From a virus, in IMG/VR virus record IMGVR_UViG_3300025647_000174, positions 1-30,771 of that record: a DNA stretch of 30,771 bases; one strand, written 5' to 3'. The position numbers and the translations under genes were made by a program. Of this stretch, positions 1,666-1,745 are shown in pieces. The stretch's first letter is position 1. Each line of letters opens with the position of its first letter. A model generated the notes under the pieces. That model was not told the DNA's origin, did no database searches, and saw only the letters and a program-made list of their open reading frames with translations.

Positions 1666-1740
1666 CCGGGGTTATCCGGTGTTCTGACAGTCCCGGCTGA
1701 CGACATGCAGACAGAACACCCCCGCAACTCGCATGTGAGG
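1666..1740 (+). promoter_or_regulatory. structured 5' leader, possible H-type pseudoknot next to the SD
   Basis: The leader contains a perfect 9-base inverted repeat, 1678-1686 (GGTGTTCTG) with 1712-1720 (CAGAACACC). The loop of that stem holds ACATGC at 1703-1708, which is the exact complement of GCATGT at 1731-1736. Both helices together make an H-type pseudoknot. The second helix abuts the SD core GAGG (1737-1740), five bases before the ATG at 1746. A small CCGG hairpin (1666-1669 with 1676-1679) shares bases with the first helix and could be an alternative fold. This could regulate translation or bind a protein or ligand. The pairing is seen in the sequence; the function is inference, and I do not recognise a known riboswitch class. 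Confidence 0.6.
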
Positions 1741-1745
1741 AATCT

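Follow-up and report, generated by a model that had tools for sequence, protein, structure and literature searches.

A conserved pseudoknotted RNA leader preceding cement-protein genes in aquatic phages

Organization of the Locus

The window, i.e., the whole stretch of DNA analyzed here (30,771 nucleotides), is a 30.8-kb viral contig in which a gap of 170 nt separates a capsid gene from a gene encoding 89 amino acids. This gap contains, from 5' to 3', a terminator, the promoter sequence TTGACA-17-TGA-TACAAC and a leader of about 80 nt:

670–1575, + strand: upstream neighbor, Mu gpT-like major capsid protein gene (PF25209, 8.6e-16; PF10124 Mu-like_gpT, 2.9e-10), also PHROG 371 major head protein
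1596–1627, + strand: intrinsic terminator, GCAGAGGGGGCTTCGGCCCCCTTTGT followed by TTTTTT, ending the capsid transcript
1628–1656, + strand: promoter of the sigma-70 type (TTGACA at 1628–1633, 17-nt spacer, TGA-TACAAC, -10 box at 1651–1656)
1737–1740, + strand: Shine-Dalgarno (SD) sequence GAGG, 5 nt upstream of the ATG
1746–2015, + strand: small gene of the cement-protein type (89 amino acids, N-terminus M(A/S)xTTFSGPV)

The capsid protein gave no match in the PDB. An equivalent hairpin with a T-run is present at the terminator position in most of the relatives. The -10 box of the window matches at only 4 of the 6 positions, and a stricter promoter scan did not list the promoter of the window. 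Among the 221 relatives, a -10 box matching at 5 positions or more was found 14–16 nt upstream of the first helix of the leader (P1) in 77% of the sequences, as compared with 4.9% of the shuffled ones, and is accompanied by a TTG at -35; at a distance of 13–16 nt, the box is present in 196 of them. Given this spacing and the TTG at -35, the RNA should start a few bases from P1, and the transcription start in the window is predicted to lie at approximately 1662–1664.

The spacing between the capsid gene and the leader ranges from 48 to 1337 nt across the loci (48–129 nt in most of them) owing to the insertion of genes, endonuclease genes among them, while the leader is separated from the ATG of the cement gene by a constant short distance of 6–18 nt. 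In the examples inspected, the capsid gene and the leader are separated by an HNH endonuclease gene, and the leader remains beside the downstream gene. One 65-kb contig, IMGVR_UViG_3300010354_000081, carries a cassette composed of the capsid gene, an HNH gene, the leader and a cement gene at each of its ends (loci L001, L445, and L446); the cement proteins differ between the two cassettes, and this contig either is a mosaic of strains or was assembled from two of them. The -35 TTGACA of the cement promoter falls inside the final HNH codons at these loci with an HNH insertion.

Architecture of the Leader

The comparison with relatives defines five helices (P1 to P5), three of which are pseudoknotted or kissing. 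Their strands in the window are the following:

1666–1670, + strand: P1 5' strand CCGGG, pairing with 1692–1696, almost at the predicted 5' end of the mRNA
1676–1679, + strand: CCGG, 3' arm of a competing local hairpin (partner 1666–1669), incompatible with P1 and with two of the P2 pairs
1678–1686, + strand: P2 5' strand GGTGTTCTG, nine perfect pairs with 1712–1720, covarying
1688–1699, + strand: P4 hairpin CAG[TCCCGG]CTG, arms 1688–1690 and 1697–1699, the hexaloop containing the P1 3' strand
1692–1696, + strand: P1 3' strand CCCGG, inside the P4 hexaloop
1703–1708, + strand: P3 5' strand ACATGC, pairing with GCATGT at 1731–1736
1712–1720, + strand: P2 3' strand CAGAACACC, partner of 1678–1686
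1728–1739, + strand: P5 hairpin CTC[GCATGT]GAG, arms 1728–1730 and 1737–1739, the hexaloop being the P3 3' strand and the 3' arm belonging to the SD

P4 and P5 therefore share the same design, consisting of three base pairs closing a six-base loop that pairs elsewhere. Some unpaired bases are kept in at least 85% of the sequences, namely an A and an AC on the 5' and 3' sides of P4, respectively, and a GA preceding the 3' strand of P2. A sequence-only reading of this DNA had proposed a pseudoknotted leader abutting the SD, composed of the 9-bp perfect stem and the pairing between ACATGC and GCATGT, along with the SD GAGG and the CCGG hairpin (1666–1669/1676–1679). All these elements occur exactly at the positions given in that reading, and the pseudoknotted leader beside the SD is conserved in the relatives, but the fold described was incomplete, since the P1 3' strand, P4, P5, and the promoter were missed.

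The full topology (P1 + P2 + P4 + P3) has a descriptor score of 61.5 in the window, which was equaled by only 1 of 600 dinucleotide shuffles. Ordinary minimum free energy (MFE) folding gave an unremarkable value (z = +0.34): this method cannot see the element because it is blind to pseudoknots.

Covariation and Selection at the RNA Level

A search of IMG/VR with the capsid protein yielded 80 close loci, and a covariance model including only P2 and P4 was built from 38 leaders. Since sets chosen with a descriptor are biased towards paired P1–P4, the covariation claims rest on the alignment obtained with this P2/P4-only model, P1 and P3 being outside it; a first descriptor scan gave many false maxima, and the descriptor which replaced it demanded P1 beside P4. 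In the P2/P4-only alignment, 90.3% of the cells are paired, vs. 64.8% in shuffled and 25–40% in slid alignments, two-sided changes occur in 22 of the 23 pairs, and the covariation score amounts to 0.671, whereas shuffling gives 0.223 and sliding no more than 0.108. The proportion of paired cells is 97.6% in P1 (two-sided changes in 4 of 5 pairs), 79.9% in P3 (6 of 6 pairs), and 100% in P4, the middle pair of which is UA, AU, CG, or GC. The compensatory changes looked for in the leaders of relatives are thus present in both of the helices put forward in the sequence-only reading.

When changes were counted on the capsid-gene tree, the independent co-changes and contrary changes numbered 8 and 0 at position 2 of P1 (p 0.008), 6.9 and 0 at position 3 (p 0.016), 7 and 0 at the middle pair of P4, and up to 9.8 and 0 in P2; in P3, each pair showed 4.7–7 co-changes and at most 0.1 contrary ones. 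The covariation of P1–P4 is strong and survives the correction for phylogeny. In a wider set, which was selected on pairing, P1 takes the forms CCGGG:CCCGG, CTGGG:CCCAG, CTAGG:CCTAG, CCTAG:CTAGG, CCAGG:CCTGG, CCGAG:CTCGG, CCAAG:CTTGG, and CCGGA:TCCGG. P5 is supported more weakly than P1–P4: its flanks are CTT:AAG (28), CTC:GAG (10), GTG:CAC (10), and ACC:GGG (6) among 63 sequences, with 141 CTT:AAG and 32 CTC:GAG in a larger set, and its co-changes, although nearly all of the expected kind, do not reach significance because of their small number, so that the covariation of P5 is suggestive. In P2, a symmetric pair search of 222 leaders gave 141 G-U pairs vs. a single A-C pair, an asymmetry which indicates that selection acts on the RNA of the + strand.

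The competing hairpin, which had been read as part of a switch, is distributed according to the P1 type. In forms of at least 4 bp, a CCGG-type hairpin is kept in 113/120 CCGGG, 3/3 CCGGA, 2/2 CCAGG, and 1/1 CCGAG members and is nearly absent from the CTGGG (1/85), CTAGG (1/9), and CCTAG (0/2) members; compensated forms (CCAGG/CCTGG and CCGAG/TCGG) occur in the lineage group of the window. A switch based on this hairpin is thus not supported as a general feature, although some lineages of the family retain the hairpin itself. In terms of energy, its formation makes little difference: the hairpin with a shortened P2 and P4 amounts to -11.8 kcal/mol, and P2 with P4 to -12.5 kcal/mol, before P1 and P3 are added. 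This hairpin might represent an intermediate of folding or another state specific to certain lineages.

The Downstream Gene

The homolog of the 89-amino acid product in phage DSL-LC04 is annotated as a cement protein, and all the downstream products of at least 50 amino acids fall into cement-like groups having a common N-terminus and different bodies. An AlphaFold model of another type belonging to this family (mean pLDDT 58.8) gave as its top PDB match the cyanophage Pam1 capsid chain 7eel_H (probability 0.99), which is weak with an E value of 0.012, and as its third match, likewise weak, the KHP40 cement protein. Judging from its sequence, the gene at 1746–2015 is a cement-protein gene, and it is this gene, following the capsid gene, that the leader would control. 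A phmmer search of the PDB with the 89-amino acid product gave weak matches to coronavirus spike heptad-repeat constructs, which were discarded as most likely reflecting biased composition.

The leader was found exclusively before cement genes. The capsid tree requires a minimum of 17 switches of cement type, the leader being retained. The same leader types precede proteins with the N-termini TTFSGP, STTQSIW, and ATHLGPW, and the P1 type does not track the cement type.

Distribution Among Phages

The P2/P4-only model detected the element in the window, in phage DSL-LC04, and in 67 of the 80 capsid-gene loci, as a single copy in each case and always on the coding strand, and no second site was found in the 475 kb searched with this model. 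In a search of 18 whole records, one copy was present in 17, and the remaining record carries two, at its contig ends. A pattern drawn from the leader core and another drawn from a second leader type each matched at least 120 stretches, which indicates that the family is large: hundreds of freshwater phages and some marine ones carry the leader.

Among the 13 loci lacking the element, only L067 and L069 have a recognizable cement gene; several of the others stop soon after the capsid gene, and some contain long unrelated insertions. In L067 and L069, which are nearly identical, the cement gene is located about 727 nt after the capsid gene, with an inserted gene (apparently of the GIY-YIG type) and no leader. 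These two loci represent a natural loss of the element, which is thus not indispensable.

Since BLASTN of the leader against phages gave no match, the phage members were located via the capsid protein. Pelagibacter phage HTVC023P matches the model with 46 bits. The pelagiphages HTVC027P and 023Pt_psg01 have the topology of the leader but different sequences (P1 is ACTGTAT:GTACAGT in the former and ACTATAC:GTATAGT in the latter; 0/600 shuffles each), and P3 in these phages is CCTAG:CTAGG, which contains the SD.

In bacterial genomes, 30 pattern matches were obtained, 5 of which were confirmed by the model (L339, L330, L326, L325, and L344). The metagenome bins (MAGs) concerned are labeled betaproteobacterium, uncultured bacterium, Armatimonadetes, Verrucomicrobia, and Paceibacterota, and these five matches are probably phage contigs binned into MAGs; the remaining ones, mostly in GC-rich genomes, were not confirmed by the model and were dismissed as chance matches. 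Three records of 65,014 bases each (OQ594354, OL906435, and PP438419) have the same capsid match (72.3% identity) and name three different cyanobacterial hosts; their equal size and shared capsid match suggest that a single phage may be concerned, whose host is perhaps none of those named. The leader is absent from OL906435, the one examined among the three.

Comparison With Mu-gpT-DE and Other Known Leaders

At the gathering and at permissive thresholds, no Rfam 15 family, riboswitch or other, matched the leader, and only chance matches were obtained; no covariance model of a class in Rfam thus fits, in line with the statement in the sequence-only reading that no known class was recognized. 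This statement has to be qualified, since Mu-gpT-DE (RF03012) occupies the same place in sister phages. The RF03012 model (threshold 49 bits) failed to match the leader of the window and that of the other records tested, and it produced no gathering hit at 12 further loci; conversely, the leader model R1 gave at most 12.9 bits at RF03012-type loci. Both RNAs are located directly 3' of a gpT-like major head gene (PF10124 in the case of the gene upstream of our leader) and before a gene starting with M(A)xTTF..., and the hairpin of RF03012 is flanked by A and AC, as is P4. This A-hairpin-AC core is all that they share: RF03012 is a 53-nt model, typed as an sRNA, with one 5-bp hairpin and a 4-bp CCUG:CAGG outer helix including the SD, which is not part of the P1–P5 fold of the window, and it lacks P1, P2, P3, and P5.

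In the clade of the Roseobacter phage CRP-902, at the loci whose capsid proteins are 96–98% identical to that of CRP-902, the slot holds RF03012 or else a leader built like the one described here. RF03012 was found in CRP-902 itself (OQ401624; L355:3996-4048) and in 13 of 20 related IMG/VR loci (L372, L384, L377, and others), and locus L365 of the same clade has the present architecture, with P1 AGGGCA:TGCCCT (0/600 shuffles). RF03012 is the positional counterpart of the leader. Since its consensus pairs the SD and the model ends at the AUG of the next gene, RF03012 is probably also a leader of the gene following the capsid gene; we suggest that Mu-gpT-DE has been misclassified as an sRNA and should be regarded as a 5' leader. 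The fold described here is absent from Rfam, and the sole trace of it found in the literature is RF03012, compared here in its Rfam version, which, as noted in PMC7657543, differs from the ZWD version (Weinberg, 2017).

Three known types of leader seem to work in a comparable way. The mRNA leader of T4 gene 32, to which gp32 binds, contains one pseudoknot of the H type. It lies 5' of the SD and controls translation, which is its likeness to the cement leader, but it belongs to another gene and another phage group. Riboswitches such as SAM-II and preQ1-II sequester the SD in a pseudoknot within a short leader. The cement leader resembles them in its length and its SD-proximal pseudoknot but differs from them by having no Rfam match, by its two kissing hexaloop hairpins, and by its linkage to a virion gene rather than to metabolism. 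Like the 5'-terminal mRNA stabilizers of which the ompA leader is an example (PMC3997798), it is structured at the very start of a strongly expressed mRNA, and it differs from the ompA leader in its interlocked pseudoknots and the additional helices at the SD.

Possible Function of the Leader

The 3' strand of P3 overlaps the SD core by 1–2 nt in 173 of 214 members and by 4–5 nt in 8 of them, so that P3, which covaries, includes or abuts the SD and in most members reaches only its edge; P5 pairs CT[C/T] with [G/A]AG of the SD, a pairing that remains suggestive. The conservation of the fold, the covariation of P1–P4, the selection acting on the + strand RNA, the position, and the exclusive linkage to cement genes are all observed directly. 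On balance, they make it fairly probable that the element acts in cis as the 5' leader of the mRNA for the cement protein and gates translation initiation, and it probably sets the timing or the amount of cement protein. Transcription would begin a few bases from P1; P2 carries P4, and P1 is formed by the six-base loop of P4 with the first bases of the RNA; a segment of the P2 loop kisses the six-base loop of P5 (P3), the 3' arm of P5 being the first part of the SD. With P3 and P5 formed, part of the SD would be held in pairs and the fold would screen it off, and the opening of P3/P5 would give the ribosome access to it. P1 would shield the 5' end and might provide some added stabilization.

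RppH and RNase E require single-stranded 5' ends, and structures at the 5' end stabilize mRNAs (reviewed in PMC3997798), which makes a stabilizing role plausible alongside gating. That the leader might be a constitutive 5'-end cap and nothing else, ensuring mRNA stability and a steady high output, with P1 blocking the start of decay by RppH and RNase E and no sensing involved, seems to us rather doubtful. The fixed distance from the -10 box (13–16 nt) does put P1 at the 5' end of the RNA, and the product is an abundant virion protein, but this distance may reflect inheritance, some RF03012-type leaders of sister phages have no obvious promoter directly upstream, and a cap would need neither P3/P5 beside the SD nor the conserved unpaired A, AC, and GA.

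Translational riboswitches with an SD-proximal pseudoknot exist. The leader has such a pseudoknot in a compact fold, and its conserved unpaired bases near P4 and P2 might bind a metabolite or an ion, stabilizing P3/P5 and closing the SD; this reading is unlikely, however, since the leader precedes a single virion gene family in phages with different hosts and matches no riboswitch in Rfam. Autoregulation, in which the cement protein would bind its own leader, is improbable to much the same degree. It would fit the position of the leader and has a precedent in T4 gene 32, the mRNA leader pseudoknot of which is reportedly bound by its product (PMC3014915, PMC535899). The retention of the leader through changes of cement type, with the same leader types before differing N-termini and P1 types independent of them, argues against it. 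If a virion protein does bind the leader, the capsid protein is a better candidate than the cement protein, and we infer that the gating may respond to a capsid protein or to the state of the cell and not to the downstream protein.

A free sRNA produced 3' of the capsid gene, as Rfam types RF03012 (Gene; sRNA), was rejected as very improbable: it would account for the apparent promoter and the conserved fold, but there is no terminator between the fold and the ATG, the distance to the ATG is short and fixed, the leader accompanies the cement gene instead of the capsid gene, and the RF03012 model itself extends into the AUG of the next gene. Chance pairing or an element acting at the DNA level, with which the ordinary MFE z-score would agree, is refuted by the covariation and the G-U vs. 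A-C counts.

Gating of the cement mRNA would place an RNA structure in capsid assembly, the fold being located at a point where a phage could adjust how much cement protein it makes relative to shell protein. More tentatively, the leader might belong to a new class of phage regulatory RNAs with two kissing hexaloop hairpins, sensing the capsid protein or a cellular signal and setting the output of cement protein, with Mu-gpT-DE as a reduced or replacing form; freshwater phages and those of SAR11 and Roseobacter would then have retained a single leader function at the capsid locus, with exchanges of the fold and of the gene. An abundant, strongly covarying RNA fold missing from Rfam is widespread in aquatic phages and tied to a single virion gene, and its role can be tested, since Pelagibacter and Roseobacter phage isolates carry the leader or its counterpart.
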